From Acidobacteriota bacterium (lineage in GTDB: Bacteria; Acidobacteriota; Blastocatellia; HR10): a DNA stretch of 64,000 nt. The translations under genes were made by a program, and so were the position numbers. Location of the stretch: assembly GCA_030550025.1 (NCBI GenBank), contig JAUQQC010000013.1:1263-65262 (forward strand), written 5' to 3'. Below the pieces are notes generated by a model. The model made no database searches and was not told the origin of the DNA. It saw only the letters and a list, made by a program, of their open reading frames with translations. Below are positions 40,061-57,909 of this stretch, one piece after another. The first letter of the stretch is position 1. Each line of letters opens with the position of its first letter.

Positions 40061-40099
40061 CGTTGCACCTCCTTCCACAAAGATTCCCAGCACCTCAAG

Positions 40100-42092: not shown

Positions 42093-42886
42093 ATCCGCAA
42101 CATCCCTTCCACATCAATTCGCTGGCGCAGCACCTGCAGCTCTTCCACGGTCGGCGGCTCGGTCTCCGGAACAACGTCCGGGATGATCAGCTCAAATCCC
42201 GTGTTCCGCACCACGTCATCCACAGTCACGCCGGGATGAACCGACGCGAGCCGCATTCGCTTAGTCTGCGGCTCGAAATCCATGATGCACAGCGGCGTGA
42301 TGCAATAGATCGGTCCGTTGTCGGGAAGGCCCAGTCGTCGGCGCCCATCGGGTCCACCTTCGCCCCATCCCACCGTCGAGATGAAGTCGCACTTCTCAAC
42401 GAAAATGCGGCGATCGTGAGACTGGACGTAGAGGTAGTAGCGATCCACATAATGGGCCATCGAGGTCGTACCGACAGCCCCCGGGCCACGGAATGTCAAG
42501 TGCCGGTAGTCCTCGCCGACACCGATGAGGTTCGAGTTACCGTATGGATCGATTTGGAGCGCCCCGACGACGAACAGGTTGGAGACCAGGCGGGGATTCT
42601 CCTGGAAATCGTCATGTAAGACATAAGCTTCGGCCCATTTCGCCGGACGGAAATCGGTCACCGTATAGAAAGGCTCCATCTTCGGCTCCTTGAGCAGATT
42701 GGTGAACGTCATGACCACATAAAGCCGAACGTTGGGACAATAGAGCAGATGCGCGAGCAGGATCCCCGCGCGCGGCACATGGAGCCCGGCTCCGACGGCC
42801 ACGCGTTCACCGTCGCGCACTTGGCGGGCGATGAATGTCGCGATCAGCTCCTTCGTCGTGAAGTCCTTCGCATATTCTCGAGTCAT
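42089..42886 (-). CDS. CoA-transferase beta-like subunit (IpdB-like)
   Basis: 265 residues of the class-I CoA-transferase beta fold: DGERVAVGAGLHVPRAGILLAHLLYCPNV, then RLYVVMTFTN where transferases have their catalytic Glu (SENG-type motif), so the Glu is missing. Further on come VGALQIDPYGNSNLIGVG, FVEKCDFISTVGWGEG and HPGVTVDDVVRNTGFEL. The missing Glu and the overall layout match IpdB of the IpdAB ring-opening hydrolase more than a true transferase. The alpha-like partner is encoded immediately upstream (3-base gap). It resembles the second half of the fused protein at 33706-35337, including the final PDVVPETEPPT versus PANVPETPPPT. Confidence 0.88.
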   Translation of the reverse strand: MTREYAKDFTTKELIATFIARQVRDGERVAVGAGLHVPRAGILLAHLLYCPNVRLYVVMTFTNLLKEPKMEPFYTVTDFRPAKWAEAYVLHDDFQENPRLVSNLFVVGALQIDPYGNSNLIGVGEDYRHLTFRGPGAVGTTSMAHYVDRYYLYVQSHDRRIFVEKCDFISTVGWGEGGPDGRRRLGLPDNGPIYCITPLCIMDFEPQTKRMRLASVHPGVTVDDVVRNTGFELIIPDVVPETEPPTVEELQVLRQRIDVEGMLRI

Positions 42887-42889
42887 GGC

Positions 42890-43789
42890 CTAGTACTCGT
42901 GCAAAGCGATGAGGCGTTTAATTCCGATGACTTGAAGATAATCGGCGTGCGTCTCGGGCTCCAAGACGTATTTGCGGAGATACGCCTCGAAGGGTCCGCG
43001 GTCACCGTATTTGGCGTAGGTCGTCGCCGCGGCGACGTACTCGCGCAGATGTTCGGCATCCTCGATGTAGTAGCCCGGGGCGGCAAAGGGGTGCGATCCA
43101 TAGGGCGCGCGCACGATGGCATCTACGCCGTAGAGCGAGGTCGCCAGCGGGTTCTTCCGCACCTCCTCGTTGGGAATGATCCGTTCGACCTGAACGATCG
43201 TTCGATCCGCCGCACGCCAGAGGGCGCGATCGCCAAACCCCGTCCCGATGTGCTGGACGTTCCCGTAAGGATCGGCATGGGCGGCGTAGATGATGGCGAT
43301 GTCAGGTTTGATCGCCGGTATAGCCAGAAGCGGCTCGCCCGTGATGGGGTCGTTGAAGACCTTGATATCGGGATTGATCTCAGGGAACGAGGTGCCGATC
43401 CCGGCTTTCCACGGCGTGAAGGGCAAGCCTTGAGCGGCCGCGCGCAAGGCGCAGTAGTACATTCCCTCATCGCACTCCCAGACCTCCAGCTCTCCACGCT
43501 CGACGGCCGCGCGAAACATCGGAGCGACCGGACAGTAGTGTTCGCCGCCCATGTAGGCCGTCACAAGCTTCCGAACGCATCCGGCCCCGATGAGTAGATC
43601 CAGATCCAAGCCACCGGAGGCTGGCCCAACGACAGTGAGTCCCTTCACCCCACGCCGAATGATCTGACGAACAATCGCCATTGGATGACTCGAGTTGATG
43701 AATCCTCCGATGGCGATCGTCATCCCATCGCGAATCCAAGAGGCCGCGTCCCGTTCGTCTATGACGAGCGATTTCCGTTCCAGAACCAT
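42890..43789 (-). CDS. CoA-transferase alpha-like subunit (IpdA-like)
   Basis: 299 residues. IRDGMTIAIGGFINSSHPMAIVRQIIRRG opens the alpha-type Rossmann-like fold, and LDLDLLIGAGCVRKLVTAYMGGEHYCPV is close to the corresponding part of the fused protein. FGDRALWRAADRTIVQVERIIPNEEVRKNP closes the core, and about 60 C-terminal residues form an extension (HPFAAPGYYIEDAEHLREY) typical of IpdA-like proteins. It should form a heterodimer or heterotetramer with the product of the next gene and hydrolytically open a cyclic diketone-CoA by retro-Claisen chemistry, if the IpdAB analogy holds. ATG 43789 was chosen because the longer frame runs into the upstream FAD-enzyme gene. Confidence 0.88.
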   Translation of the reverse strand: MVLERKSLVIDERDAASWIRDGMTIAIGGFINSSHPMAIVRQIIRRGVKGLTVVGPASGGLDLDLLIGAGCVRKLVTAYMGGEHYCPVAPMFRAAVERGELEVWECDEGMYYCALRAAAQGLPFTPWKAGIGTSFPEINPDIKVFNDPITGEPLLAIPAIKPDIAIIYAAHADPYGNVQHIGTGFGDRALWRAADRTIVQVERIIPNEEVRKNPLATSLYGVDAIVRAPYGSHPFAAPGYYIEDAEHLREYVAAATTYAKYGDRGPFEAYLRKYVLEPETHADYLQVIGIKRLIALHEY

Positions 43790-43803
43790 GGCGATCGGCC
43801 CGA

Positions 43804-45201
43804 TCAATAGTGCCAAGAATCCTTGAACTCTGGGATGCGAAAGCCTAAGACTCGCTCGACGCACGTCAGAGCGGCGCGCGCGGCGCGATCCACACCAATG
43901 CCTCGCGAGCGGAAGGTCTCCGAAGCGAAGAACACCCCCTCGACGTTCGGCGCTTGATAATCGGGCCGATACCGACCGACCAAACACGGCTTCTGGATGA
44001 CGCCGAACGGGGGATGCGCCACCAAATGGCGCTTCTTCCAGATAATGTTTCTCGGCGTGAACGTATCGGGATACATGGCGGCCAAGTCGCGTTCGGCCTC
44101 CGCGAACTTCCGCTCGATCCACTCCCGATCGCGAACGCCTTGAAAAGCGAACCCGCAATTGAAGAGATGCTTCCCCGCGGGAGCCGTCGTCGCATCCATC
44201 CCCGAAACCAGAAATGCCCATCCAGGCAGCCGGCTGTAAGGCGCTTCGAACCACACAGCCAGCTCCGTGAGCGACGTGCCCGTATAGATCGGCTCATGAG
44301 AAGCAACATAGAAGCCCAACCAACAGACGCGAAAGCGATCCTGCGCCAACATCTTCACCTGCGCCACGTACCAATCCGGCAAATCCTGCTCCCATACGAT
44401 CTCCAAGACATTCCAGACAGGCAAGGTGCAGATGACGACCTCTGTCTCCACGTACTCCAGGTTGAAGGCTTCCGTCGGAATAGCCTTTTGAACCGGTTCA
44501 AGCGCAACGGCCACGACCCGTCCGTTTTCGATCACGACTCGATGCGCGCGCGTCTGCAGCCGGATCTCTCCGCCGTGCTCGCGGACCGCTTCGGCAAGGG
44601 TGTGAAACAAGCCATCCCATCCGCCGACGGGCCAGAAGGAGTAACCGGCCGTCTGCTTCTCCTGATAGTGCATCTTGCGGACGTAGAGATTATCGCTGGC
44701 CGAGTGATCGTACCACTTCTCGGTGAGACACTCAGCCATGGCAATGTACTCGAACAGCTCGATGACCCCTTCGCTGCGCGTGTGCTCTAAAAGCCACGCC
44801 CGAAGCGGAAGATGGTCATACCGATCGAACTCCTCGAACTCGGTCTCGCACAGAATGCGAATGACCTTCTTCAGCTCGTTTTTGTCCACGCGGTAGCGTT
44901 CCTGGATGGGTCGCCATCGCCCCTCGCGATTATCCCAGTACGGGAGTCCTTGATTGACGACACCGTGCTCGAGCCGCTTCCCGAGGAACTCGAAGATGCG
45001 GGTGATGCCCGATCCGCTGTCTTCGAGCAGATGCCCGCCGAGGTTGAGCCGATATCCCTCGTACGGGATGGCCATGGCGCGCCCCCCCAAATACGCATCG
45101 CGCTCAACGATGAGCACCTTCTTCCCGAACTTCGCCAGCAGTGCGCCAGCCGTCAATCCGGCCGCTCCGGCCCCAATGACGATGACATCGTACTTTGCCA
45201 T
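43804..45201 (-). CDS. FAD-dependent oxidoreductase (phytoene-desaturase/amine-oxidase-like)
   Basis: 465 residues. The N-terminal dinucleotide fold is DVIVIGAGAAGLTAGALLAKFGKKVLIVERD, followed by LGGRAM and LGGHLLEDSG; the C-terminus has VEGVFFASETFRSRGIGVDRAARAAL, the second FAD-contact region. The plan fits the phytoene dehydrogenase/retinol saturase/amine oxidase superfamily. It could desaturate or saturate an alicyclic ring, perhaps as a ketosteroid- or terpenoid-type dehydrogenase. There is no signal peptide. GGGAGCGTCAT precedes the ATG. It lies between an acyl-CoA dehydrogenase and the IpdAB-like genes, so it probably acts on the ring before cleavage; substrate unknown. Confidence 0.85.
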   Translation of the reverse strand: MAKYDVIVIGAGAAGLTAGALLAKFGKKVLIVERDAYLGGRAMAIPYEGYRLNLGGHLLEDSGSGITRIFEFLGKRLEHGVVNQGLPYWDNREGRWRPIQERYRVDKNELKKVIRILCETEFEEFDRYDHLPLRAWLLEHTRSEGVIELFEYIAMAECLTEKWYDHSASDNLYVRKMHYQEKQTAGYSFWPVGGWDGLFHTLAEAVREHGGEIRLQTRAHRVVIENGRVVAVALEPVQKAIPTEAFNLEYVETEVVICTLPVWNVLEIVWEQDLPDWYVAQVKMLAQDRFRVCWLGFYVASHEPIYTGTSLTELAVWFEAPYSRLPGWAFLVSGMDATTAPAGKHLFNCGFAFQGVRDREWIERKFAEAERDLAAMYPDTFTPRNIIWKKRHLVAHPPFGVIQKPCLVGRYRPDYQAPNVEGVFFASETFRSRGIGVDRAARAALTCVERVLGFRIPEFKDSWHY

Positions 45202-45211
45202 ATGACGCTCC

Positions 45212-46360
45212 CTACCGATAGCCCAACGTGTATTCGGCGATCAGCACGCGATGCAGCTCGTTGACGCCCTCGACGATCTGGAAGACCTTGGCGTCGCGAT
45301 AGTACCGGCTGACGGGATATTCGGCCGAGCATCCATAAGCGCCGAAGATCTGGACGGCATGCGTGGCCGCCATGAGCGCCACATCCGTTGCCACCATCTT
45401 GGCGATCGAAGCCTCGCGGCGCACATCGGGCACCCCTTGATCCTTGAGCCACGCCAACCGGTACGTCAGATAGCGCGCGCTCTCGATCCCTATGACCATA
45501 TCGGTGATCTTGGACTGCACGAGCTGGAACTTCCCGATGGGTTGACCGAAGACCACGCGTTCGCGGGCATATGCGATGACCTCATCCAAACACGCCTGAG
45601 CCATCCCGACGGCGCGCGCGGCAACGCCCAACCGCCCGTTCTCCACCGCGCACATGGCGACGCGAAATCCCTCGCCCTCTTCGCCGATCCGATTTTCGAT
45701 CGGAACTCGACAGTCCTCGAAGACCACTTCGCCCGTGCAGAGGGGTCGGAATCCCAGTTTGTGCTTATATGGTCGGAACGTCATCCCCGGCGCCCCGCGC
45801 TCGATGATGAACGCGCAAATCCCCTTATGTCCGAGGCTCCGATCAAGCGTGGCGAACGTCAACACCCAATGGCATACGTCGAGGAAACTGATCCACGCCT
45901 TCGATCCGTTGAGGACATAGGATTTCCCGTCCCGCCGGCACGTCGTGCGCATGGCGGCGACGTCCGTACCCGATCCCGGCTCGGTAAGAGCTACAGAAGC
46001 GAACGCTTCACCTTGTGCGAGGGGCCTCAGATACCGCTGCTTTTGCTCCTCCGTCCCATAGCGAAGGAGCGCCGAACCAGCTAACCCGCTCGGGAAAGAG
46101 AGCGCGCAGCCGATGACCTGACAGACGCGCGAAATCTCCTCGATGATGAGCGCATAGGTAACGTAGTCCAGACCCGCGCCCCCGTACTCGACCGGGACGA
46201 CGCCGCCCATGTACCCCTGCGCCGCCGCCTTCTTGACGATCTCCACGGGAAACCGCTCCTCTTGATCATACGCGGCCACATAGGGCGCGATCTCACGAAG
46301 GGCGAATTCCCGCACGGCCTTTTTGATCTGTAATTGCTCCTCAGTGAAGCCAAAGTCCAT
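45212..46360 (-). CDS. Acyl-CoA dehydrogenase with canonical catalytic Glu
   Basis: 382 residues, standard length. MDFGFTEEQLQIKKAVREF, VALTEPGSGTDVAAM, YVLNGSKAWISFLD, GHKGICAFIIERGAPGM, GEGFRVAMCAVENGRLGVAARAVG, VFGQPIGKFQLVQSKI and FQIVEGVNELHRVLIAEY follow the family plan. The Glu of VEGVNEL is at the usual catalytic place, in contrast to the homologue at 38105-39310. It transfers electrons to ETF (etfAB at 29216-31049). It is the most conventional beta-oxidation enzyme of the set. Confidence 0.95.
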   Translation of the reverse strand: MDFGFTEEQLQIKKAVREFALREIAPYVAAYDQEERFPVEIVKKAAAQGYMGGVVPVEYGGAGLDYVTYALIIEEISRVCQVIGCALSFPSGLAGSALLRYGTEEQKQRYLRPLAQGEAFASVALTEPGSGTDVAAMRTTCRRDGKSYVLNGSKAWISFLDVCHWVLTFATLDRSLGHKGICAFIIERGAPGMTFRPYKHKLGFRPLCTGEVVFEDCRVPIENRIGEEGEGFRVAMCAVENGRLGVAARAVGMAQACLDEVIAYARERVVFGQPIGKFQLVQSKITDMVIGIESARYLTYRLAWLKDQGVPDVRREASIAKMVATDVALMAATHAVQIFGAYGCSAEYPVSRYYRDAKVFQIVEGVNELHRVLIAEYTLGYR

Positions 46361-46376
46361 TGTTCCCTTTCCTCCA

Positions 46377-46808
46377 TCAGCCGAGGCTTCCCGATCTCAC
46401 CGGAGCGAAATAGGCGATGTCTAGGATGCTTCCCGTCCGGTCTTCGCGCCATACGGCGCGAACGCGGATCACGCGCCCCAATTCGGCCGGCTCCACTTCG
46501 CCGAGACGATGCACCAGGTGGGTATCCGCCCCTTCCAGCCGAATCAGGCCTAGGATCACCGGAGGCCCCACAGGCCGCACCGTGTAACTCACCAGTTCTC
46601 CCTCATCCGGCAGTTCTTGCCATTCAGCGATCTCTCGCCAGCACCGCCCGCAAAATCCAAGCGGCGGAACGTACACGCGCCCGCATCCCTCACATCGCGT
46701 CGCCCAAATGCGACGCTCCGCAAGCCCCATCAGAAAGCGCGACATCGCCCGGCCTGCCGTATACCGGAAGGGGATGCGAATCTTCTGTCGAACGATCCAT
46801 TCGCTCAT
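46377..46808 (-). CDS. DUF35 Zn-ribbon/OB-fold acyl-CoA-binding protein
   Basis: 143 residues. The zinc ribbon is CEGCGRVYVPPLGFCGRCW (two CxxC pairs), followed by an OB-fold (LVSYTVRPVGPPVILGLIRLEGADTHLVHRL; VIRVRAVW). DUF35 proteins pair with thiolase-type proteins (BbsA/BbsB, ChsH2-Ltp2) to form thiolase or retro-aldolase complexes. The two thiolase-like proteins encoded upstream lack the usual catalytic Cys and are likely partners. ATG 46808 follows GAGGAGTGAG and lies one base after the upstream stop. A second DUF35 gene is directly upstream, giving two DUF35 and two thiolase-like genes in a row. Confidence 0.92.
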   Translation of the reverse strand: MSEWIVRQKIRIPFRYTAGRAMSRFLMGLAERRIWATRCEGCGRVYVPPLGFCGRCWREIAEWQELPDEGELVSYTVRPVGPPVILGLIRLEGADTHLVHRLGEVEPAELGRVIRVRAVWREDRTGSILDIAYFAPVRSGSLG

Positions 46809-46809
46809 C

Positions 46810-47277
46810 TCACTCCTCGAGGAGACGAAAATGCAAAACGTCTCGCAACGATCCCTCGCGCTTCTCGCGGAAGACGGCACACACGCGTTGTCCAACGCGA
46901 ATCTTGCGCTCGTCGGTTTCATCCAGAAAGTGATAGAGGCTAGTCGAGGCGCCATCCAGCCGGACGATGGCGAATCCATAGGGGACGGGACGTTGTTCTC
47001 CCGTCATCGGATCAATGAACGGGATGCGCACGACAGTCCAGCCGACGATCGTCCCCCCAGGGCCGACTTCGACCCACTCCTGCAGCTCGCGATAGCAGAT
47101 GCCACACACCGGACGCGGCGGAACGTACACGCGCCCACACTCCAGACACTGCACGCCCACGAACCGCGCATGATCGCGCAGTTCGGTGAAGAATCGCGTC
47201 CCGTACTGACCGACCGCGTACTGATACTCGGTGTCCAGAAGGAAATCGACGCGCAGCGTTGGTGACTCCTCGCTCAT
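46810..47277 (-). CDS. DUF35 Zn-ribbon/OB-fold acyl-CoA-binding protein
   Basis: 155 residues. An N-terminal helix region (YAVGQYGTRFFTELRDHARFVG) precedes the zinc ribbon CLECGRVYVPPRPVCGICYRE, then the OB fold (IVGWTVVRIPFIDP; YGFAIVRLDGASTSLYHFLDE; VRVGQRVCAVF-like end). It overlaps the thiolase-like gene by ATGA, so the two are translationally coupled and probably form a complex. The long insert around FIDPMTGEQRPVPYG is also found in DUF35 partners of SCP-x-type proteins. The paralogue follows directly. Confidence 0.92.
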   Translation of the reverse strand: MSEESPTLRVDFLLDTEYQYAVGQYGTRFFTELRDHARFVGVQCLECGRVYVPPRPVCGICYRELQEWVEVGPGGTIVGWTVVRIPFIDPMTGEQRPVPYGFAIVRLDGASTSLYHFLDETDERKIRVGQRVCAVFREKREGSLRDVLHFRLLEE

Positions 47278-48437
47278 GGTTTCTCCTGACTCAAAATCAT
47301 GACGTCGGTCCACGCATTGCCCCCATAGCCCGTTGCCAGCGCCATCCGCGCTCCTTCGACTTGACGCCGCCCGGCCTTCCCCATGATCTGCAAGGCCGCC
47401 TCGGCGACACGAATGAGCGCTGTCGCCCCAATGGGATTCGTGGACATGACGCCCCCCGATGGATTCACCGGCAGTTCCCCGGTCAATTCCGTCACCCCCA
47501 TATCAATGAGCTTCCCTCCCTCGCCCCGATCGCAAAATCCCAGATTCTCGTACATGGCCAATTCGGCGAAGGATGCGACCTCATAGATCTCGGCGACATC
47601 GAGTTCCTTACGTGGATTCGTGATCCCCGCCGCTTGATAGGCCCGACGCGATGCGGCGATCAAACTCCGCATCTCGGCAAGCCGCTTTGGACTATCCCCC
47701 ATGTATTGCTGTTCATGAGCCGTCGCCACGGCTCGGATCCATGCCGGTCGCGGAGCGAGCCTCTGCGCTTTTGACTCCTCGGCGAAGATGACTGCCACCG
47801 CCCCATCCGACTGCGGACACATATCGAGCCGCTTCACCGGATAGGCGAGCACCTCCGATCTTAGGACATCCTCGACCGTGATGTCGGGCATCTGCAGATG
47901 AGCGTACTCGTTGAGGCAGGCGTTGCGCCGCGCCTTGACGGCCGCCTTGGCCGCCTGTTCCTCGGTCACGCCACTCTCGTGCATGTAGGTCGTCGCCATG
48001 ACAGCGAAATTGCCGATAGCGCCAGCCATGACCGAACGTTCCCAGATGGGATCGCCAACGGTCGTGATGGCCGTCTGCGTATGCCCTTCGGACTGTTTTT
48101 CGAATCCCACGGCCATCACCACATCATAGATGCCGCTGGCGACATAGTAGTACGCCGCGATGGCCGTCGTCGTCCCCACCGTCCCTCCCGTATTGAACTT
48201 CACCGAGGGCTTCATATATCCCCCCCATCCTTCGACCGCCCACAGCTCCGGAAAGAGAAAGCCCTCGAACGGCTCCATGTTACCAAGCAGCACGGCGTCA
48301 ATATCCCGCATCGTCAGATCAGCGTCTTGCAAGGCGCGAGTGACAGCTTCGGTGATCAACTCGCGAATGTTGACATCGAGCCGTCGCGCCGTGTGCTTGG
48401 TTTGCCCCGTGGCAATGATGGCGACGCGTCGCGGCAT
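47274..48437 (-). CDS. Thiolase-like protein lacking the catalytic Cys (lipid-transfer-protein/Ltp2-like)
   Basis: 387 residues of SCP-x-type thiolase fold (RRVAIIATGQTKHTARR; DIDAVLLGNMEPFEG; AGAIGNFAVMATTYM; GKAGRRQVEGARMALATGYGGN). At the nucleophile position (ENYCATGTD in the intact homologue at 31114) it has KFNTGGTVG, i.e. no Cys. HDCF is replaced by YEVASF, and GHPIGASG by TNPIGATA, so the activating His residues are gone too. That loss is seen in Ltp2-type retro-aldolases of steroid side-chain degradation, which work with DUF35 partners. It is coupled by ATGA to a DUF35 gene. Assignment as aldolase is inference. Confidence 0.88.
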   Translation of the reverse strand: MPRRVAIIATGQTKHTARRLDVNIRELITEAVTRALQDADLTMRDIDAVLLGNMEPFEGFLFPELWAVEGWGGYMKPSVKFNTGGTVGTTTAIAAYYYVASGIYDVVMAVGFEKQSEGHTQTAITTVGDPIWERSVMAGAIGNFAVMATTYMHESGVTEEQAAKAAVKARRNACLNEYAHLQMPDITVEDVLRSEVLAYPVKRLDMCPQSDGAVAVIFAEESKAQRLAPRPAWIRAVATAHEQQYMGDSPKRLAEMRSLIAASRRAYQAAGITNPRKELDVAEIYEVASFAELAMYENLGFCDRGEGGKLIDMGVTELTGELPVNPSGGVMSTNPIGATALIRVAEAALQIMGKAGRRQVEGARMALATGYGGNAWTDVMILSQEKP

Positions 48438-48443
48438 ACGATC

Positions 48444-49562
48444 TCACTCTCGCCGTAGGATCACGACCGTTTGATTCTGCCCGCAGATACCACCTGCGCC
48501 ATGAGCTAAGGCCACGCGCGCCCCTTCAACTTGACGCGCTCCGGCCTCTCCGCTCAACTGCCAATACGCTTCGACGGCGCGCACGAGCCCGCTAACGGTC
48601 GGCGGATTCCCGCAAAGCGGACCTCCGGATGGGGTGATGAAGGAAGCACGGTCGCGCGCGATCAATTCCACCGGGGATGCGTGAAGGCCGAGCGCCTCAA
48701 TAGCCATCAGCTCTTCATGTGCATACCGTGCCGAGATCTCGACGACGTCAATCTCGCGAGCGGGATCGCTGATGCCCGCCATGGTATAGGCGCGCCGCGC
48801 GGCTTCCTGAAGCGCCCGCGCTTCGGCCAAATCCCGTTCAGTCCAATACGCGTCCGTGCAGTTCCCAATACCCGCGATGCACACCGGACGATCGACCAGC
48901 CTGCGCGCCCGCTCCTCGCTCGCTAAGAGCAGGGCGCACGCTCCATCCGAACGCGGTGCAGCTTCCAGCTCATGAATAGGGTCCGCCAGAAGGGGTGACG
49001 CCAGCACGTCTTCGACGGTGAACTCTCCAGCCCGCTGAGCATATGGATTCTTGAGCGCCTGACGATGCGCTTTCACGGCGACGAGCGCCATATCCTCCGA
49101 CGTTATTCTTCGTTTCCGGCAATAGCAGCGCGCCTGCAGCGCCGCAGCCGTCAGCTCATCCAACCCTAACGGACGCTGGACAAAAGGATCGAACATGAGG
49201 CTCGTGATCGCCGACGACTGCCCTTCGGATTCCTTGCAATGAGCGACGACGAGCGTCAGATCGAACTCTCCCGAGAGGATGCGGGCGACCCCATAGAGCA
49301 ACGCTTGCAAACCATCGGCCGCCACCTTCGCCTCGGATTTCAAGTACGCGCCCACGACCTCATTGATCGCCATCCCGGAGATGGTCTTCCCATCATAGGC
49401 GTCCTGCGAGGCCGTCACCATGCTCTCGATCTCGCGCATCGAGATGCCCGTGCGATCGAGAAGCTCCCGGACGACTCCATAAACCAGCTCGTTGTACGCA
49501 AGCGAGGCCTTTCGAGCCTCAAACCGCGTCTGCGCCGCTCCGATGATCGCCACCCGCCTCAT
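48444..49562 (-). CDS. Second thiolase-like protein lacking the catalytic Cys
   Basis: 372 residues. It starts RRVAIIGAAQTRFEARK and has the SCP-x-type layout (AINEVVGAYLKSEAKVAADGLQALLYG; VVAHCKESEGQ; EIDVVEISARYAHEELM; GEAGARQVEGARVALAHGAGG). The expected nucleophile position reads KVAADGLQA without Cys, and the GHPxGxSG motif is reduced to GNPPTVSG. The His in YAHEE may be a remnant. Together with the previous protein it likely forms a heteromeric pair, each with a DUF35 partner. Overlap by ATGA with the enoyl-CoA hydratase gene defines the start at 49562; a longer frame would lie inside that gene. Confidence 0.88.
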   Translation of the reverse strand: MRRVAIIGAAQTRFEARKASLAYNELVYGVVRELLDRTGISMREIESMVTASQDAYDGKTISGMAINEVVGAYLKSEAKVAADGLQALLYGVARILSGEFDLTLVVAHCKESEGQSSAITSLMFDPFVQRPLGLDELTAAALQARCYCRKRRITSEDMALVAVKAHRQALKNPYAQRAGEFTVEDVLASPLLADPIHELEAAPRSDGACALLLASEERARRLVDRPVCIAGIGNCTDAYWTERDLAEARALQEAARRAYTMAGISDPAREIDVVEISARYAHEELMAIEALGLHASPVELIARDRASFITPSGGPLCGNPPTVSGLVRAVEAYWQLSGEAGARQVEGARVALAHGAGGICGQNQTVVILRRE

Positions 49563-50350
49563 CGCCCTTTCCACTGCGGAGAGCGCTTTTCGAGAAAAGC
49601 GGTGATCCCCTCCCGCGCGTCCTCGGAGAGGAGCGCATGCAAGCAATACCGCCTCTCGATCTCCAACCCTTCTGCCAACGTCATCCCCGCCGACTCGACC
49701 AAGCAGCGCTTGATCGCGCGTATCGCCACAGGAGCTTGAGCCGCCAAGCGGCGCGCGAACGCTCGCGCCTCCTCCCGCGTGCGCTCCGGCTCGCACGCCC
49801 GCGTGATCAGTCCAATGGCTTCCGCTTGCTCGGCATCCAATAGCTCTCCAGTCATGATCAGCTCCGCCGCGCGCATGCGCCCGATCAATCGCGGGAGCCG
49901 TTGCGTTCCGCCTCCTCCAGGGAGAATGCCCAATCTAATCTCCGGCAGCCCGATGCGCGGCGTTCCCTTGGACATGAAGCGGAAATCCAAGGCCAACGCC
50001 AGCTCGCATCCCCCGCCGAGCGCATGCCCGGTGATGGCCGCGATGGTGGGCTTGGCGAGACGTTCGAGGCGATTGAACGTCGCATGCACCAACTCGATCT
50101 TTCGCTCTAGCGGCTCTCGTTCGAACCGATATTCGGCCATCTGCTTGATGTCCGCCCCAGCGATGAAGATGTTCTCCAAGGCGCTCGCGAAGATGACGGC
50201 GCGCGTCTCCTCATCGGCCTCCAAATTCTCACTCGCTCGAATGAGCTCTTCGTATAATTCCGGATCCAACGTGTTCATCGGCGGCTTGCGCACGACCACT
50301 TCCGCCACGCCATCGGCTCGTGCGATCGTTAGGAAGCGATAGTCAGACAT
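49559..50350 (-). CDS. Enoyl-CoA hydratase with both catalytic Glu
   Basis: 263 residues. IFIAGADIKQMAEY and ITGHALGGGCELALALDFRFMSKG give the oxyanion hole and the first catalytic Glu (GGGCELALA). GLPEIRLGILPGGGGTQRLPRLIG gives the second (PEI). Thus, unlike the homologue at 28369-29166, it is a normal hydratase (crotonase). It should hydrate an enoyl-CoA in the beta-oxidation-like part of the pathway. It lies between the thiolase-like gene (ATGA overlap) and the amidohydrolase gene (3-base gap). Confidence 0.95.
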   Translation of the reverse strand: MSDYRFLTIARADGVAEVVVRKPPMNTLDPELYEELIRASENLEADEETRAVIFASALENIFIAGADIKQMAEYRFEREPLERKIELVHATFNRLERLAKPTIAAITGHALGGGCELALALDFRFMSKGTPRIGLPEIRLGILPGGGGTQRLPRLIGRMRAAELIMTGELLDAEQAEAIGLITRACEPERTREEARAFARRLAAQAPVAIRAIKRCLVESAGMTLAEGLEIERRYCLHALLSEDAREGITAFLEKRSPQWKGR

Positions 50351-50353
50351 CGC

Positions 50354-51208
50354 TCACTCCTCGAACTTGAAGACCTTCACGGCCGTCTCGCGCAAGAGGG
50401 CTTGCTTAGCCTCCGGCTTCAACCCGAGCTGCTCAATCTGTGTGAGGCTCTCCTCATGAAGGATGAGCGGATAGTCCGTCCCCCACATGACTTTCCCGAT
50501 ACCGCGCGAATTCATGAAATGAACCAGGGATTTGTCCCAATACTTGGGCGCATGCCCGCTGACAGCGATGTAGACGTTCGGATGCTTCCACGCCAAAGCG
50601 ATCAATTCCTCAACCCATGGCCACCCGGTATGGGCAGCAACCAGACGCAGCTCGGGGAAATAGAGGGCGACCTCATCGAGCAAGATTGGACGCCCACAAG
50701 CGCTCGGCATGAATTCGGCTGAATGTCCTGTTTGAATGACGATGGGAATGTCCAACTCCACGCATTTAGCATAGAAGGGGTACCACTCGGCGGCATTGAG
50801 CGGCAAGCCGAAGCCGTAAGGGTGAATATGAGCGCCTCGAAATCCATATTCTCGAACGGCATGCTCGAGCCGACGCACACCCGCCATGCGATCGAAGGGA
50901 TTGAGGCCCGCCAGCCCCACGATCCGATCCGGATACGCGCGAACCAATGCGGCGATCTCCTCGTAGGAGAAGTCCGCCCCCATCCTGTTCTTTCGATAGA
51001 ACGCCTGCTTGAGAGCGGGGACACACACTTTCTCGATGCCGAGCCGATCCATCATGGCGATGAATTCGCTGGGCTCATAGCCCTTCATGTTCGCGGCGCG
51101 CCCCCACTGAATCCCCATCATGAAATAGACTTCCTCATTGTCGAGGAAGAGATGCTTGATCCCTGCTGGCGTGAACGGATTACACCAAACGTCAATGGCC
51201 CCCTTCAT
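50354..51208 (-). CDS. Amidohydrolase-2 family protein with altered first metal motif
   Basis: 284 residues of the PF04909 barrel. The usual D-x-HxH start is here AIDVWCNPFTP, so both His of the first motif are replaced (Trp and Asn). Other typical elements remain: IVIQTGHSAE, AAHTGWPWVEE with its His, and VMWGTDYPLILHEE with the Asp. The family includes decarboxylases and C-C hydrolases that need a metal; the substitution suggests a different metal site or a metal-free reaction. It overlaps the VOC gene by ATGA and is the second gene of the long run, so it probably acts early in the pathway. Compare the intact homologue at 1282-2124. Confidence 0.87.
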   Translation of the reverse strand: MKGAIDVWCNPFTPAGIKHLFLDNEEVYFMMGIQWGRAANMKGYEPSEFIAMMDRLGIEKVCVPALKQAFYRKNRMGADFSYEEIAALVRAYPDRIVGLAGLNPFDRMAGVRRLEHAVREYGFRGAHIHPYGFGLPLNAAEWYPFYAKCVELDIPIVIQTGHSAEFMPSACGRPILLDEVALYFPELRLVAAHTGWPWVEELIALAWKHPNVYIAVSGHAPKYWDKSLVHFMNSRGIGKVMWGTDYPLILHEESLTQIEQLGLKPEAKQALLRETAVKVFKFEE

Positions 51209-51636
51209 GCGCTTCCCTCCTCCGCGCGTTCGTCCGGCTCTTCCGCCAACTCGATGAGGATCTCCCCATGCATCCCCAGGTTCAGGAACGCGATCTTCCG
51301 CCCGTGCAGTCCCGCCCGCGGCTGCGGATCGAGGACACGCGCCCCCTGCTCCCGAAGGCGCACAAGCTCAGCCTCAAGGTCCGATGCGTGAAAGGAGATA
51401 TGGTGGATGCCTTCGCCGCGCTCGCGAAGCAGGCGCCCGACTTTCGTATTCGAGTCCGTGGCACTGAGCAACTCCAGATGAATGCCTCCGATCTCGAGTA
51501 CGGCGACCTCGGTCTGTGACTCCAGCAGGAAGCCCCGCTCGCACAACCGGGCGCCTAGCAGCCGCTGAAACCGCTCGATGCTCGCCTCCATGTCCGCGAC
51601 CAGAAGCGCGATGTGATTCAATCCGCCAATCACCAT
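51205..51636 (-). CDS. VOC-family protein, methylmalonyl-CoA-epimerase-like
   Basis: 143 residues, usual length for methylmalonyl-CoA epimerase. GGLNHIALLVADMEASIERF contains the first metal His, GGIHLELLS the second region, GIHHISFHASDLEAE the third and GEILIELAEE the last Glu ligand. It could epimerise methylmalonyl-CoA or a related acyl-CoA produced at the end of the pathway; a propionyl-CoA yield would fit that. It is the first gene of the long run after the promoter/inverted repeat at 51647-51702, with AAAAGGAGACG before the ATG. Confidence 0.88.
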   Translation of the reverse strand: MVIGGLNHIALLVADMEASIERFQRLLGARLCERGFLLESQTEVAVLEIGGIHLELLSATDSNTKVGRLLRERGEGIHHISFHASDLEAELVRLREQGARVLDPQPRAGLHGRKIAFLNLGMHGEILIELAEEPDERAEEGSA

Positions 51637-51646
51637 CGTCTCCTTT

Positions 51647-51666
51647 TACCAAACGCTTGTTTGGTA
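51647..51666. promoter_or_regulatory. 20-bp inverted repeat, candidate TetR-family operator
   Basis: TACCAAAC-GCTT-GTTTGGTA: two perfect 8-base arms and a 4-base centre, typical in size and spacing for TetR dimers. It lies 11 bases upstream of the first start codon of the catabolic run and covers the predicted transcription start, so binding would block initiation. The TetR-type gene at 39380-40060 is the obvious candidate protein. I saw no second full copy in the window by eye. Confidence 0.65.
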
Positions 51667-51672
51667 GCTCTT

Positions 51673-51702
51673 ACTCTACTCGATAGGTGGGTCTTCTGTC
51701 AA
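51673..51702 (-). promoter_or_regulatory. Predicted sigma-70-type promoter of the catabolic run
   Basis: Read on the minus strand: a perfect -35 TTGACA (51702-51697), an 18-base spacer and TAGAGT (51678-51673) as -10, four of six consensus positions. Transcription would start near 51666, at the edge of the inverted repeat. The promoter lies inside the 3' end of the selenoprotein-candidate gene, so that gene probably has its own transcription and may also feed into the run. Confidence 0.55.
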
Positions 51703-52248
51703 ATCGCTCTCCTGCGGCGCGCGCCAGGAGCACGCATAGACGATGCGGAACACAGTGTTGAACTTCTGAAATCCCGTGACGAGGGCGAAATACATGCCCA
51801 CCTCCACGAGCTCCTCATCGGTCAACTCCCGCCGCAGTTCCTCGAGCACCGTTCCTTCCAGCACGGCTTCCGAGCGATGCGCCATCAATTCGGCCATTCG
51901 CAGGATGGCGCGCTCGCGCGGCGTGAACGGACCGCGCTCGGGATCGTCAACGCCCTCGACCTTCTCCTCGGGAATGTGGTTCCGCCTGGCCCAGGCGAGG
52001 TTCGCTGCCTTTCAATATTCGCACCCGTTCAACTGCGCCAACCGCAAGCGTGCCAATTCCTTGATCTCGGACTCGACGTGACCGCCAAGCAGCGAGAGAT
52101 ACAGCTCGTGAAAGGCTCGAAAGGCCTCAGGCCGATGGGCGATGACGCGAGCGAAGGTCGTATCGCCGATCCATGCCTCATACAAAGCTATGAGTTGTTG
52201 AAGATCCTGAGGAAGATCGCTCGTCTTCTTCAGCTCGACGGCCGGCAT
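51676..52248 (-). CDS. Carboxymuconolactone-decarboxylase/AhpD-like protein, candidate selenoprotein (in-frame TGA)
   Basis: 190 residues if TGA at 52012-52014 is read as selenocysteine (residue 79). Before it: ELARLRLAQLNGCEY; after it: KAANLAWARRNHIP, then TPRERAILRMAELMAHRSEAVL. Family members have CxxC followed by x3-His in this place (NGCEYC-type); here it is C-E-Y-TGA, and the His position is Asn. The frame is open for 112 codons after TGA. A hairpin follows at 51982-51998. The first ATG has GGAGGACGGAT upstream. AhpD-like proteins are thiol-based peroxidases; selenoproteins are known in this family. Alternative: nonsense mutation of a Cys codon. Gene callers will report two short fragments. 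Confidence 0.8.
51982..51998 (-). promoter_or_regulatory. Bacterial-SECIS-like hairpin after the in-frame TGA
   Basis: The minus-strand RNA reads UCGCCU-GGGCC-AGGCGG: a 6-bp stem (five Watson-Crick pairs plus a closing U-G) with a 5-base apical loop starting GG. The loop starts 20 bases after the UGA. Bacterial SECIS elements are stem-loops with a G in the first two loop positions, about 16-37 bases downstream of the UGA, so stem, loop and spacing all fit. It lies within the coding sequence, as usual in bacteria. Confidence 0.6.
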
Positions 52249-52296: not shown

Positions 52297-55236
52297 TCAA
52301 AACGTGAATCGCAGAGCGAGCTGCGTCTTGAAGGCATCGCCGACAGCGCGCGGCGTATTGAAGGTAGCGATCGGCGGCTGCGCGAGCGTCGGTCGTCCCC
52401 ATACGGTGAAGAGATCGGTGATGTTCACCCTGTTGAAGAGGTTGTAGAACTCTGCGATGGCCTCTAGGCTGTAGCGCTCGGCCATGCGGAAGCGTCGCAC
52501 CAGGCGCAGGTCCAACGACACGAAATCATCCCCTCGATGGGTATTCCGTCCGAGTATATCCGGACGATCCGTGACGCCGTTGAGATCTCGGTTCACGTCC
52601 GAGCCCACCGTCACGTTGAAATACCGAGGGCTCTGCGCCGTCGCGATCGCATGCACTCCGAATCCCTTCAAGACAGGGAGTTGCGGCGGCGCCTCCGCGC
52701 TCAGGGTCAGGATGAAGCGATGCTTGGCGTGCTCAGCCGAGAGTCCTCGATCCAACCGCGTATTGTACGGATCCTCAGGCGCGATGAACGTGCTGTTGCC
52801 AGCCCCGTTATCGATCGCTCGCGAGAAGACGTAGTTGGCCGTGATCCCGAAGTGGCGCGCGAATACCCGGCGCACGGTGAGCGTCCCCGCATGGTAGATC
52901 GAATACCCGATGGGCTGCCCGATATAGGTCACGCCAAAGCGGGTATCGTAAAGTCGCCCTTGATAATCGTTCTTCCCGTTGGGGAGACGGGCGACGGCTG
53001 GCCGCAGGTTATGATTGACGAGTAGCGGGAGCTTGAACGAACGCAAGCCCGAATAGCTGATAGTCACGACCCAGGAGGGCGAGAGCTGCCGTTCGACCTC
53101 CAAACTCCACTGTTGCGCATACGGATTCGGAATATCTGGCGCCGAGATGACCATGAACTGCGGTGATGGAGCCGTGGGGATCACCCCCCGCCGCACGTAA
53201 TCCAGAAAGGCCGCCGTTGCTGCCTCCACCCCGGTGATGATGAGGGGAACGACTGTGTCCGGCAAGGGCTTGTATTTTCGAACGAAGGGATTCGCCCGCG
53301 CATATTCCTCGTTGAAGCTCGGGAAATTGGAGCCGTGGACGAATCCGTCGATGAGTAGATAAGGATGGTAACGATCGGAGATGAAGACCCCGTAGCCGCC
53401 GCGAATCACCATCGGACGGAGTTGCCCCACCGAATATGCGAATCCAACGCGCGGCTGGAAATTATTGTGATCTCCTTCGACGAGGGTCGTGATCCCGCGA
53501 ATCCGCTCGACGTCATATCGAACCCCATAGGTGAACGTCAGGTTCCGGCGCGCTTGCCACTGATCCTGGAGGAACCACCCGAACTGATCGGCGTCCATGG
53601 ACAAGCGCAGCCGATATTGCTCCGGATGGATGCGGACTTGAAAGACGAGCGGACCATTCGGGGCAGTGAAGGCAGCTAATCCAGGGATGACCGCCAAAGA
53701 CCCGGGCGTGACATGGTTCGCAAGGTCCGTCCGTAAATACTCGGCGCCGATCTTCACATGATGGTTTCCGCGGAGGTAATTCGCGTGAGAGAAGACGTGC
53801 CAGCGTTTCTCATCGAGCCCCTGTTCATCGGCGGCTTCCACTCCACTAGAGAACGCTCCGACGACGGCTAGCTCCACCATGGGCACCCCCGGTCGCGGCC
53901 GCAACTGGTAGGCATGCTTGGCAAAGCCGACCCCCATCGTCGTGACCAGCTGCGGCGAGAACGTGGAGTTGAGCAGCAGCACCGCCCCCTGATCCCGCAA
54001 CGTATGGAGGCGCGCCGCAAGCGTTGTGATCGGTTCCCCCGTCACTCCCGACGCCCCGATCCGATCGTTTTGATTCTCCATATCATAGAAGTTGTAGCGC
54101 ACCATCCCCGTATGCTTCTCTCCCAAGACGAAATCTAACCTCACCAGAAACTGATCCACATCCGAAGTCTGCAACACGTTCGGCGTCTCTCGCTCTAGAT
54201 ACCCCAATCGCTCTAGCACGGCGTTGATGGCCTCCAGATTTTGCAAATAGACGGCGGGGAATCGAGGTGCCTTCGCTTGCCGCTGTCCCTCGTAGTTGCC
54301 GAAGAGGAAGAACCGATCTCGTCGCAACGGCCCACCGATCGTTCCCCCAAACTGCCCTCGCCGAAAAGCCCGGAAGCCCGGCGTCGTCAGGATGTCCGTC
54401 TTGTCCAGCTTGTCGTTCCGCAAAAACCCGTACAAGCTCCCATGCCACTCGTTCGTTCCCGAACGGGTGATCACATTGATGATTCCTCCCATCGCATGTC
54501 CCTGCTCGACCGTGTATAAGCTATTGACGACCCGGAACTCCCGCACCGCCTCGAGCGAATAGAAGGACTTCACCACATTGGCCGTCCACACGTAGGCATC
54601 GGCCCCATCCATCGTTTGGTAATTGAACTGATAGCGCAGTCCGCTGAAGCTGAATTGATTCTCCTTGTAACGATCTCCCATGTAGGCCCCGCGTCCGCTG
54701 GCCGCGCTGGCTGGAACGACTTTGGGCGTGATGAGCGTCAACTGCACGAAACTGCGCGTGTTGATCGGCAAGGCGTGCACCTGCCGTTCATCGAGGACCT
54801 GCGCGATCGCCGTCCGCGTCGGTTCCACCAGGGGCGCTTGCGCCGTGACCTCGACCATCTCCTGCACGGCCCCTACTTTCAATACGATGTCCAGAGTCGC
54901 CGCCTGTCCCACCGTTAAGGTCACGCCGGGAATCACACTCACCGCGAATCCCGCGGCCTCGACCTTCACCTCGTACCGCCCCGGCAGGAGTGAGACTACT
55001 CGATAGCTCCCACGCGTGTCGGTCTCCACCAGCTGACTCACTTCCGTATCGAGATTCCGCACCGTCACCCGCGCTCCCGCCACGACGTTCCCCATCGGAT
55101 CGGTCACCACGCCGTTCAAGCTCGCCGTCGCTGGCATCTGCCCGGCGAAAGCCACGGCCGCCAGGAACAACGTGCCCCCGATCACCCCGTAGAGATCCGC
55201 GCGAAGGTTCCTGCCAATCTTATTCCCCCAAAGCAT
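52297..55236 (-). CDS. Oar-like TonB-dependent outer-membrane receptor
   Basis: 979 residues. A signal peptide (hydrophobic about residues 16-31, ending AFAGQ) precedes a carboxypeptidase-regulatory-like sandwich (SLNGVVTDPMGNVVAGARVTV to about 125), a plug (ALPINTRSFVQLTLI; YTVEQGHAMGGIINVITRSGTNEWHG) and a barrel ending LALRFTF with terminal Phe. A possible insertion site in the plug (ASGRGAYMGDRYKENQFSF) matches other Oar-like proteins. It is close to the selenoprotein-candidate and the catabolic run, so it is a likely uptake receptor for their substrate. GGAGGGAAGG precedes the ATG. The gene ends 48 bases before the next start. Confidence 0.93.
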   Translation of the reverse strand: MLWGNKIGRNLRADLYGVIGGTLFLAAVAFAGQMPATASLNGVVTDPMGNVVAGARVTVRNLDTEVSQLVETDTRGSYRVVSLLPGRYEVKVEAAGFAVSVIPGVTLTVGQAATLDIVLKVGAVQEMVEVTAQAPLVEPTRTAIAQVLDERQVHALPINTRSFVQLTLITPKVVPASAASGRGAYMGDRYKENQFSFSGLRYQFNYQTMDGADAYVWTANVVKSFYSLEAVREFRVVNSLYTVEQGHAMGGIINVITRSGTNEWHGSLYGFLRNDKLDKTDILTTPGFRAFRRGQFGGTIGGPLRRDRFFLFGNYEGQRQAKAPRFPAVYLQNLEAINAVLERLGYLERETPNVLQTSDVDQFLVRLDFVLGEKHTGMVRYNFYDMENQNDRIGASGVTGEPITTLAARLHTLRDQGAVLLLNSTFSPQLVTTMGVGFAKHAYQLRPRPGVPMVELAVVGAFSSGVEAADEQGLDEKRWHVFSHANYLRGNHHVKIGAEYLRTDLANHVTPGSLAVIPGLAAFTAPNGPLVFQVRIHPEQYRLRLSMDADQFGWFLQDQWQARRNLTFTYGVRYDVERIRGITTLVEGDHNNFQPRVGFAYSVGQLRPMVIRGGYGVFISDRYHPYLLIDGFVHGSNFPSFNEEYARANPFVRKYKPLPDTVVPLIITGVEAATAAFLDYVRRGVIPTAPSPQFMVISAPDIPNPYAQQWSLEVERQLSPSWVVTISYSGLRSFKLPLLVNHNLRPAVARLPNGKNDYQGRLYDTRFGVTYIGQPIGYSIYHAGTLTVRRVFARHFGITANYVFSRAIDNGAGNSTFIAPEDPYNTRLDRGLSAEHAKHRFILTLSAEAPPQLPVLKGFGVHAIATAQSPRYFNVTVGSDVNRDLNGVTDRPDILGRNTHRGDDFVSLDLRLVRRFRMAERYSLEAIAEFYNLFNRVNITDLFTVWGRPTLAQPPIATFNTPRAVGDAFKTQLALRFTF

Positions 55237-55299: not shown

Positions 55300-55788
55300 T
55301 TACGAACGTTTTGAAACTCCCACATCGGACTCGCCAACGCGAAAGACTTGACATGTATTTTTGAGCAACGGCAACCAGCGCTGGCGATGCTCCTGTTCGG
55401 AGATCCCGCCCAAACCTCCTTCGCTCATCCCCGTGCGCCGATCAATGAGATACGTCGCCGTGAATCGAACAGCAGATTGCGCGATCTCGACCAGATGTAC
55501 GCAGCCGCTCGCCCCGCCGAGTCGCTCAGCGATCCGCCGATTGATCCCCGGTCCAATGACTTCCCCTTCGAGGCGAGCGACATTCGCCAACGCTGGAAGG
55601 CAGAGCGTGGGATAGGGTCGCTTGACCATCTCGGCATGTACTCGAAGAATCCGCCCGGTCTCGACCTCCACGATCAACTCAATATGGAAGCTGTGTTCGA
55701 CATCCAGGAGCGACCCTTGCACACGCAGGGTCGACCCGCGATCGTCGAAGATCTTCACGTTGACGTTTCGCTCGAGGATCTTCGTCAT
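55300..55788 (-). CDS. DUF2889-family protein
   Basis: 162 residues. The conserved features of DUF2889 are present: STLRVQGSLLDVEHSFHIEL near the start, VKRPYPTLCLPAL (P-Y-x2-C), a VARLEGEVIGPGINRRIAERLGGASGCVHLVEI segment (the RLGG-x2-GC-x-HL core), and a final helix. The Cys and His of the GCVHL core and the Cys of PTLC could form a metal or redox site. Function unknown in general; such genes occur beside oxidoreductases. ATG 55788 overlaps the LLM gene by ATGA, so it is coupled to that enzyme. Confidence 0.85.
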   Translation of the reverse strand: MTKILERNVNVKIFDDRGSTLRVQGSLLDVEHSFHIELIVEVETGRILRVHAEMVKRPYPTLCLPALANVARLEGEVIGPGINRRIAERLGGASGCVHLVEIAQSAVRFTATYLIDRRTGMSEGGLGGISEQEHRQRWLPLLKNTCQVFRVGESDVGVSKRS

Positions 55789-56822
55789 ACGTTCTGGCTG
55801 TGAAAATACGGCACGACCTCGCGCCCGAAGAGGGCGAGGCATTGCAAGACCTGATCCCACCGAGGCCCTTTGGGCAGCCGGAAACGAAGGACGATCTCGT
55901 CCACATCATACTCCCGGGCGTACATCTCGATCTGACGGATGCATTCTGCCGGCGATCCGAGGATGAAGTGACGGCTGGCGCGCTCGATGGTGAAGTCGGA
56001 TTCGGATTGGAATTCCGGATGATGGGTGAGGATGCCCCAGCGGAAATAGAAGAGCCACTCTTCGACAGCAAGACGACCGAAGACCTCCTCGGCTTCCTCC
56101 CGCGTGGGCGCTACCCATCCGTCCCGCATGAGGACGACTTTCGAGGAACGTCCGGCCGCACGAGCGGCCTCACGATAGAGGTGGACTTGCTCGAGCCAGA
56201 CTCGCTGATCTAGAGGAAATGGATCGCTGCACCAAGCATCGCCAATGCGTCCGGCTCGCGCGATCGTCTTCGGAAACATGCCACCGACCCACCATTCGGG
56301 CATCGGCTTCTGATAAGGCTTCGGCGTGAGCATGACATCGTCGAACTGATAGTACCGGCCATGGTAGGAGAACCGCTCTTCAGTCCAAGCGAGCTTGATG
56401 ATCTCGACCTGCTCCTCAAATCGTGCGCCTCGCTCATGATGGGGGATCCCGAACATCCGACTGTATCCGGAATGGTATCCAGCGGCGACACCAAAGATGA
56501 CGCGCCCGCGAGAGACCTGATCGATCATGGCCACCTGTTCGGCCACGTGAATCGGGTGATGGAGCGGGAGCACGAGGATATAACTACCCAAGCGAATGCG
56601 GCTCGTTCGAGCTGCGATAACCGAAAGCAACACCAGAGAGGAAGGAAAGAAGCACTCGGTGCGCCCATGTCGCTCGGGCACGACGATCGAATCGAACCCC
56701 CCTTCCTCAGCCAGCTCGATCTCGCGGTAGAGCTGATCAATGAACGCACTCACCTCATCGCGCGTCGGGATTGGGCGATTGTAAGATCCGGCGTGCGTAT
56801 CCAGGAGATAATGCAGCCTCAT
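55785..56822 (-). CDS. Luciferase-like (LLM class) flavin-dependent oxidoreductase
   Basis: 345 residues, full-length bacterial-luciferase-type barrel: GGFDSIVVPERHG (strand 2, typical H), RIRLGSYILVLPLHHPIHVAEQVAMIDQVSRGRVIFGVAAGY, RGARFEEQVEIIKLAW and the C-terminal GSPAECIRQIEMYARE. Such enzymes are FMN/FMNH2- or F420-dependent monooxygenases or dehydrogenases; two-component monooxygenases need a flavin reductase, which is not seen in the window. It is encoded upstream of DUF2889 with an ATGA overlap, and downstream of a paralogue (44-base gap). Start: GGAGAGGAAAGCC before the ATG. Confidence 0.9.
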   Translation of the reverse strand: MRLHYLLDTHAGSYNRPIPTRDEVSAFIDQLYREIELAEEGGFDSIVVPERHGRTECFFPSSLVLLSVIAARTSRIRLGSYILVLPLHHPIHVAEQVAMIDQVSRGRVIFGVAAGYHSGYSRMFGIPHHERGARFEEQVEIIKLAWTEERFSYHGRYYQFDDVMLTPKPYQKPMPEWWVGGMFPKTIARAGRIGDAWCSDPFPLDQRVWLEQVHLYREAARAAGRSSKVVLMRDGWVAPTREEAEEVFGRLAVEEWLFYFRWGILTHHPEFQSESDFTIERASRHFILGSPAECIRQIEMYAREYDVDEIVLRFRLPKGPRWDQVLQCLALFGREVVPYFHSQNV

Positions 56823-56865
56823 GGCTTTCCTCTCCTCGCGATCTTCCGCCGGCGCGATCCACCGA

Positions 56866-57909
56866 TCATTGGCGGAAGTGTGGGATGACCTCTTTTCCGA
56901 ACAGTTCGATGCATCGCATTGTCGCTCGATGATCGGGCCCGGTGGGATGACGGAAGTAGAAGACGATGTATTCGCATCCGACCTCGCGGCGATAGCGTTC
57001 GATCTCGGCGACGACTTCCTCCGGGGTCCCGGCGATCACCCGATTGGGGGCCACGCGCTCATAAGTCCAGTCCTCATCGCGAGCCGTGCGCACCCAAGGC
57101 TCCCACTGAGCGTTGAAGCGACCGGATTCGAAGAACCCGAGATGTTTGTAGAACAGGTGATAGTCTCGAACAGTCGGCCACCACAACTGGCGAATCTCCT
57201 GGGGATCATAAGAGACCCATCCATCGCGGATGAGGACGACCTCAATTCGATCCGCGTGGCCGTGCTCGATCGCCGACCCCCGATAGATATCGGCCCAGGC
57301 CTTCATGACCTGAATGACGTGCAGCGGATCAGAAATCCATCCTGTGCCGAGGCGTCCGGCGCGACGCAGGGCGGGTTCGCTCATGGCGCCGATCCAGATC
57401 GGGGGATGTGGCCGCTGCACGACGCGCGGCGTGACTCGGACGTCCTCCAGTGTGAAGAATTCCCCTCTGAAGGAGAAGGGCTCGCCGCTCCACGCACGTC
57501 GCACGATCTCGATCTGCTCGACAAATCGCCGGGTTACTCCCTGCCGCTCGATGCCGAAGAGCCGGAATTCGGACTCGACGAGATTGAGGCCGACACCGAG
57601 GATGACGCGCCCTTTTGAAATATTGTCCAGCACGGCGACCTCTTCGGCCACATGGATCGGATGCCACTCGGGAAGCTGCAGAATGGATGTGCCCACGCGC
57701 AATCGCTTCGTGCGGGCGGCCACAGCAGCCAAGAGGACCAGCGGAGCACTCAAGTATCCGTCAGGCATCATGTGATGTTCGGGCACGAAGATGGCATCGA
57801 ATCCAACTTCCTCGGCCAGTTCAGCTTCCTCCAGGATCTCGTCATAAAGCTCCGCGATGCGCGCTCCATCAGGTGGGTCTTGCGTATTAACGAGCATGCC
57901 GAATTTCAT
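56866..57909 (-). CDS. Luciferase-like (LLM class) flavin-dependent oxidoreductase
   Basis: 347 residues. GFDAIFVPEHHMMPDGYLS, RLRVGTSILQLPEWHPIHVAEEVAVLDNISKGRVILGVGLN, TRRFVEQIEIVRRAW and IAGTPEEVVAEIERYRREV are the equivalents of those in the neighbour, so the two are paralogues and may form a heterodimer. The C-terminal YIVFYFRHPTGPDH is also seen in altered form in the neighbour. The N-terminus (KFGMLVNTQDPPDGAR) lacks a signal peptide. The ribosome site AGGAGG (57917-57922 on the other strand) is part of a hairpin (see that entry). Confidence 0.9.
   Translation of the reverse strand: MKFGMLVNTQDPPDGARIAELYDEILEEAELAEEVGFDAIFVPEHHMMPDGYLSAPLVLLAAVAARTKRLRVGTSILQLPEWHPIHVAEEVAVLDNISKGRVILGVGLNLVESEFRLFGIERQGVTRRFVEQIEIVRRAWSGEPFSFRGEFFTLEDVRVTPRVVQRPHPPIWIGAMSEPALRRAGRLGTGWISDPLHVIQVMKAWADIYRGSAIEHGHADRIEVVLIRDGWVSYDPQEIRQLWWPTVRDYHLFYKHLGFFESGRFNAQWEPWVRTARDEDWTYERVAPNRVIAGTPEEVVAEIERYRREVGCEYIVFYFRHPTGPDHRATMRCIELFGKEVIPHFRQ

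Follow-up and report, generated by a model that had tools for sequence, protein, structure and literature searches.

A probable CxxU selenoprotein of the CMD/AhpD-like type associated with a catabolic gene cluster in Blastocatellia

CxxU selenoproteins of the CMD-like (PF02627) and AhpD-like (TIGR01926) types have been known since 2005 (PMC1088965), and published surveys report them from the Sargasso Sea, from GOS and from later datasets (PMC1088965, PMC2398784, PMC13188914). These reports agree with the initial annotation of our locus, which had taken AhpD-like selenoproteins as already established. The protein studied here shares with the surveyed ones a CMD domain, a CxxU motif, a bSECIS element just downstream and widespread Cys homologues, but differs from them in having Asn for the relay His and in its fixed place in a catabolic cluster. 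In the literature searched, including the searched passages of these three papers, no description was found of this Acidobacteriota branch or of a fixed place beside a breakdown pathway. The AhpD-like structures compared previously contain a relay of Glu, Cys, Tyr/His, Cys and His, in which both Cys and the His are invariant, whereas gamma-carboxymuconolactone decarboxylase (gamma-CMD) is a decarboxylase-type sequence without CxxC (PMC3141380).

The closest described structures are PA0269 and other AhpD-like peroxidase-related proteins (2IJC, 2O4D, 2PRR, 6K40), which have the same fold and Glu/Cys/Tyr/Cys spacing and give the best PDB matches; they carry Cys where our protein has Sec, and relay His55 where it has Asn83. 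The debrominase Bmp8 (6OHI, 6OHJ) belongs to the same fold and CMD family at about 22 % identity, but is a Cys enzyme that acts on bromopyrroles. The best-scoring NCBIfam model, NF053654 (GroundWater_YciW, YciW-related (seleno)protein), describes a CMD fold with CxxU and Asn at the relay-His place, yet our protein reaches only 56 bits against its cut-off of 310, and the model fits instead a separate clade with a CEFU motif (L035, 344.7 bits), a branch with a differently placed hairpin. The score for TIGR01926 (peroxidase-related enzyme) was 46.1 bits against a cut-off of 81.8, and the protein reached the cut-off of no named NCBIfam (seleno)protein model. Judged from sequence comparison, it is a real selenoprotein on an unnamed branch of an already known CxxU CMD/AhpD-like type, and it extends the Acidobacteriota selenoproteome by one well-supported branch.

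The gene and its signals were located in the window, by which we mean the whole 64-kb stretch of DNA that was analysed, as follows.

52248..51676, minus strand: predicted CMD/AhpD-like selenoprotein gene, 190 aa, CEYU motif with C76 and U79, TAG stop
52014..52012, minus strand: in-frame UGA, predicted to be read as selenocysteine 79, at the second Cys place of CxxC
51982..51998, minus strand: putative bSECIS apical hairpin UCGCCUG-GGC-CAGGCGG, 7-bp stem, loop beginning 20 nt after the UGA

The frame starts at an ATG at 52248, a few bases behind a GGAGG, and ends at the TAG at 51678-51676. As the initial annotation had described, it is one frame with a single internal TGA, flanked by NGCEY before and KAANLAWAR after; this is codon 79, within NGCEYU-KAANLAWARR on the minus strand, which the initial annotation had left unstated. 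The read-through protein matched PF02627 (Pfam CMD) with 39.5 bits against a gathering threshold of 23. A scan of the 64-kb window found no other gene split by a single TGA. Seen in one sequence, a lone in-frame stop in a good family member has the look of a young pseudogene, with a Cys codon turned into a stop by mutation, or of a base-calling error, and an annotation pipeline would split this ORF into two fragments or label it a pseudogene.

Among the 162 genomes of the class that were searched, six held a close relative (63–87 % identity) with one internal TGA; four of these are from the same genus and two from another family of the same order, which with the window gene makes seven orthologues in two genera and two families. 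The TGA sits on the identical codon of the alignment in 7/7, which is more than chance would give; moreover, a TGC or TGT misread as TGA is countered by the assemblies of the six relatives, which read TGA too. Purifying selection was seen on both sides of the TGA among the seven orthologues, with dN/dS of about 0.07–0.26 where calculable and nonsynonymous change several-fold to more than tenfold below synonymous change. Third codon positions made up 70 of the 126 variable sites before the TGA and 75 of the 142 after it. Conservation of the codon across seven genomes at identities as low as 63 %, constraint past the TGA, a covarying SECIS and the presence of the selenocysteine machinery (both below) leave a pseudogene or assembly error with a vanishingly small probability, and this explanation was rejected on the seven orthologues. 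What would pass for a broken gene is here most probably a functional selenoprotein.

Alignment of homologues placed the TGA exactly on the second Cys of CxxC, as had been proposed: among 58 homologues, column 79 was TGA in 32, a Cys codon in 26 and nothing else, and in a 42-row alignment it was the sole invariant column, always Sec or Cys. This bears upon a second alternative, that the TGA is read as another amino acid, through a code 4-like assignment to Trp or general read-through. The frame is indeed open if TGA is taken as sense, but column 79 is never Trp, the hairpin accompanies the TGA forms and not the Cys forms, and TGA is an ordinary stop nearby, ending 18 of the 22 listed genes of the cluster. 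We therefore consider a different amino acid at this codon scarcely credible; Trp recoding was discarded in view of the seven orthologues and of the stop codons that neighbouring genes use. Decoding as selenocysteine, which is backed by the orthologues, the Cys/TGA column, the covarying hairpin and the machinery, is almost certainly correct, in agreement with the assignment of residue 79 in the initial annotation.

In the tree, the seven orthologues formed one clade (support 100/99), and at least six Sec/Cys switches were needed over all homologues. The joining of this clade to Bacillota Cys forms may reflect long-branch attraction. Another Blastocatellia family holds a second clade of Sec CMD proteins, separate from the first and marked by the CEFU motif (L033, L035–L038, L040, L043, L045 and L050). 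In three further Sec homologues (L135, L137 and L139) the open frame continues to about 275–320 aa, which suggests a fused second domain. Four Cys-type homologues (L140, L142, L149 and L158) carry Thr in place of the first CxxC Cys and keep the Cys at the Sec position; three of their hosts (G316, G469 and G505) have no detected tRNA-Sec and the fourth (G410) has one.

The initial annotation had also described a 5-base loop starting with GG, 20 bases past the UGA. A hairpin was found there and the distance of 20 nt holds for a GGC loop, whereas the 5-nt loop, GGGCC, belongs to an alternative drawing and begins at 19 nt. The limits published for bSECIS elements (PMC13188914) are a loop of 3–9 nt with G at its first two positions, a stem of 4–16 bp, a loop 16–37 nt after the UGA and an MFE of −7.5 or lower. 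The window hairpin lies within them (loop GGC, 6–7 bp, 20 nt, −9.4 kcal/mol for the 17-nt hairpin), and in two g3 orthologues the 17-nt hairpin alone gave −7.4 and −7.0 kcal/mol, at the edge of the published value. On a single sequence the hairpin is weak, because 50–60 nt of the region folded no better than their shuffled counterparts (z +0.4 to +0.6) and codon shuffling yields a stem of this kind with a chance of about 0.02; it is the comparative data that make it strong.

A stem of 6–8 bp with an invariant GGC loop exactly 20 nt past the UGA was found in 23 TGA homologues from across the phylum. The alignment was gap-free on the codon frame and so was not fitted to the structure, although the sequences are kin. 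Among these homologues 160 of the 161 stem cells were paired, six of the seven pairs were doubly compensated, and 45 cells were doubly changed against a shuffled mean of 13. None of 500 shuffles reached the observed pairing, sliding the partner lowered it to 32–53 %, and RNAalifold recovered the identical helix unaided. At the same place in Cys homologues just 57 of 182 cells pair and the hairpin is lacking; in nine TGA homologues of the CEFU clade, the loop begins 17–18 nt past the UGA. The stem sequence differs greatly from clade to clade while pairing is kept, so that the sequence of this SECIS turns over and its geometry (20 nt, GGC loop) is retained across the phylum. Synonymous change over the hairpin was 0.28 against a gene mean of 0.44, which is weak support because 7 of 148 other windows were equally low. 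A covariance model trained solely on the 16 TGA homologues that do not belong to the seven-member clade gave its best score in the 64-kb window to the UGA site (15.3 bits, E 0.012), just above a match that lacks the hairpin (15.0). The genome-wide matches inspected were short non-coding frames or sense codons, and the model is no selenoprotein finder.

The machinery was sought in the genome that carries the window (29 contigs, 98.7 % complete) and was present in full: tRNA-Sec (selC, 75.9 bits, ARAGORN concurring), selA (584.3 bits, cut-off 268), selB (373.9 bits, cut-off 242) and selD (361.6 bits, cut-off 125). Comparative sequence evidence points to SelB and charged tRNA-Sec, which would read UGA79 as selenocysteine owing to the bSECIS hairpin. 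In a set of 56 genomes, nearly all with a TGA or Cys homologue, six had no tRNA-Sec match, of which five carry Cys forms and the other, G016, a TGA form (73 % complete). Weak matches only (49–55 bits) were seen in a few TGA genomes (G131, G262, G355 and G342), so the co-occurrence test is good and not perfect. The host SelD (L018, on contig C23) is a selenoprotein too, with U18 in GAGUACK.

An AlphaFold2 model of the protein was all-helical (pLDDT 93), and all of its significant PDB matches were CMD/AhpD-like. The best Foldseek matches were 2PRR, 2IJC and 6K40 (TM 0.65–0.77 by query), and Bmp8 was also among the neighbours. The protein does not group with the gamma-carboxymuconolactone decarboxylases, as it carries CxxU and matched the gamma-CMD structure with an E of just 0.2. 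The AhpD-like relay is incomplete: E64, C76 and Y78 are kept and Sec79 stands for the second Cys, but the His is replaced by Asn83 in 7/7 orthologues. Asn occupied this place 16 times together with Sec, in two clades including the CEFU clade, and in none of the 26 Cys forms, which had His (22) or Gly (4). Ordinary AhpD peroxidase chemistry is not assured, because the relay His is Asn83; since a selenol needs no base to ionise, the His may have become dispensable, which offers a simple hypothesis on the benefit of Sec, based on two clades.

A thiol/selenol redox function is very probable, and the selenol-based redox enzyme that had been proposed stands as the best interpretation. By analogy with AhpD and PA0269, the U79 selenolate would make the nucleophilic attack and the thiol of C76 would resolve it, in a cycle through a selenenylsulfide. 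Of the AhpD proton relay, Glu64 and Tyr78 are retained, and Asn83 would be tolerable for a selenol ionised at neutral pH. Either a lipoyl/flavin reductase or some small thiol protein may supply the electrons; neither ahpC nor a gene for a dedicated reductase was found beside the selenoprotein gene.

The surrounding genes are as follows.

39380..40093, minus strand: TetR-family regulator of the cluster, candidate to act at the palindrome
40182..51208, minus strand: downstream catabolic genes, namely amidohydrolase_2, enoyl-CoA hydratase, two thiolase-like and two ChsH2-type OB/zinc-ribbon genes
40182..51208, minus strand: downstream catabolic genes, continued, namely acyl-CoA dehydrogenase, FAD oxidoreductase, CoA-transferase A and B, and OYE-type reductase
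51205..51636, minus strand: glyoxalase-superfamily gene, first past the palindrome
51648..51667, no strand assigned: perfect 8-4-8 palindrome TACCAAAC-N4-GTTTGGTA, candidate TetR-type operator, lying after the selenoprotein gene and ahead of the downstream operon
52297..55236, minus strand: outer-membrane beta-barrel (TonB/Oar-like) gene just upstream of the selenoprotein gene
55300..57909, minus strand: genes for a DUF2889 protein and for two luciferase-like LLM oxidoreductases (TIGR03619, F420-type)

Further neighbours include an acyl-CoA ligase, and the Oar/TonB-like barrels total two. The host is able to synthesise F420, with cofE above its cut-off, and the Pfam/NCBIfam annotation of the cluster leaves its substrate unfixed. 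The neighbourhood was syntenic in the six relatives (G016–G021) within the 20 kb compared (3.8 kb for G020), and the glyoxalase gene always came directly after the selenoprotein gene. In G020 and G021 no Oar gene lies between the selenoprotein and DUF2889 genes, and the selenoprotein is still present. The LLM1 gene has an orthologue in exactly the 7 of 162 genomes that hold the selenoprotein, G022 having a 37 % relative only.

These data divide the earlier proposal that the enzyme guards or serves the adjacent catabolic system: the association is borne out by synteny and co-occurrence, but support does not extend to the actual reaction. The protein is most likely a selenol peroxidase or thiol oxidoreductase serving the cluster, which would reduce by-products of the acyl-CoA/F420-LLM catabolic pathway, whether peroxides, other electrophiles or disulfides. 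We infer its link to the pathway's products with moderate confidence, and the chances are about even that its role is defence of that pathway against peroxide or by-products. A general stress protein beside the cluster by chance would also fit the gene's place upstream of the palindrome, where the downstream operon seems to begin; the gene may not share that operon's control. However, synteny retained in two families although the adjoining Oar gene differs, and co-occurrence with LLM1, make such an accident distinctly improbable.

Bmp8, a CMD-family debrominase, removes a substituent reductively with Cys, a strategy that may be likened to that of deiodinases. The selenoprotein could likewise catalyse a step of the pathway itself instead of guarding it, its selenol acting as the nucleophile in a Bmp8-like reductive removal. 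In its favour, Bmp8 (6ohi/6ohj) is clearly related in fold and profile, the protein has lost the relay His and its gene is tied to one catabolic cluster; against this, the fold is no closer to Bmp8 than to peroxidase-related proteins, and no leaving-group-specific gene was identified in the cluster. We regard a catalytic step as unlikely, and the serving peroxidase or oxidoreductase as the preferred function. A more specific reading, offered tentatively and with rather low confidence, is a CMD selenoprotein subfamily, with Asn for the relay His, in which the selenol performs a dedicated step of an uncharacterised F420-linked acyl-CoA catabolic pathway of Blastocatellia and not general peroxide defence. 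The locus links selenium to one defined catabolic gene cluster, and this makes its physiological role testable.

The position of the palindrome between the selenoprotein and glyoxalase genes indicates that the selenoprotein ends the upstream unit and that the palindrome probably controls the following operon. It recurs in relatives, near-identical in L160–L163 and L165 and degenerate in L164, and is probably, as a candidate from sequence, the operator of the cluster's TetR regulator. At 46377-49796, the two thiolase-like and two ChsH2-type OB/zinc-ribbon genes adjoin one another, pairs that presumably recall the retro-aldolases of steroid side-chain degradation. Along with the CoA-transferase, LLM and amidohydrolase genes, they may represent an undescribed degradation pathway in Blastocatellia.
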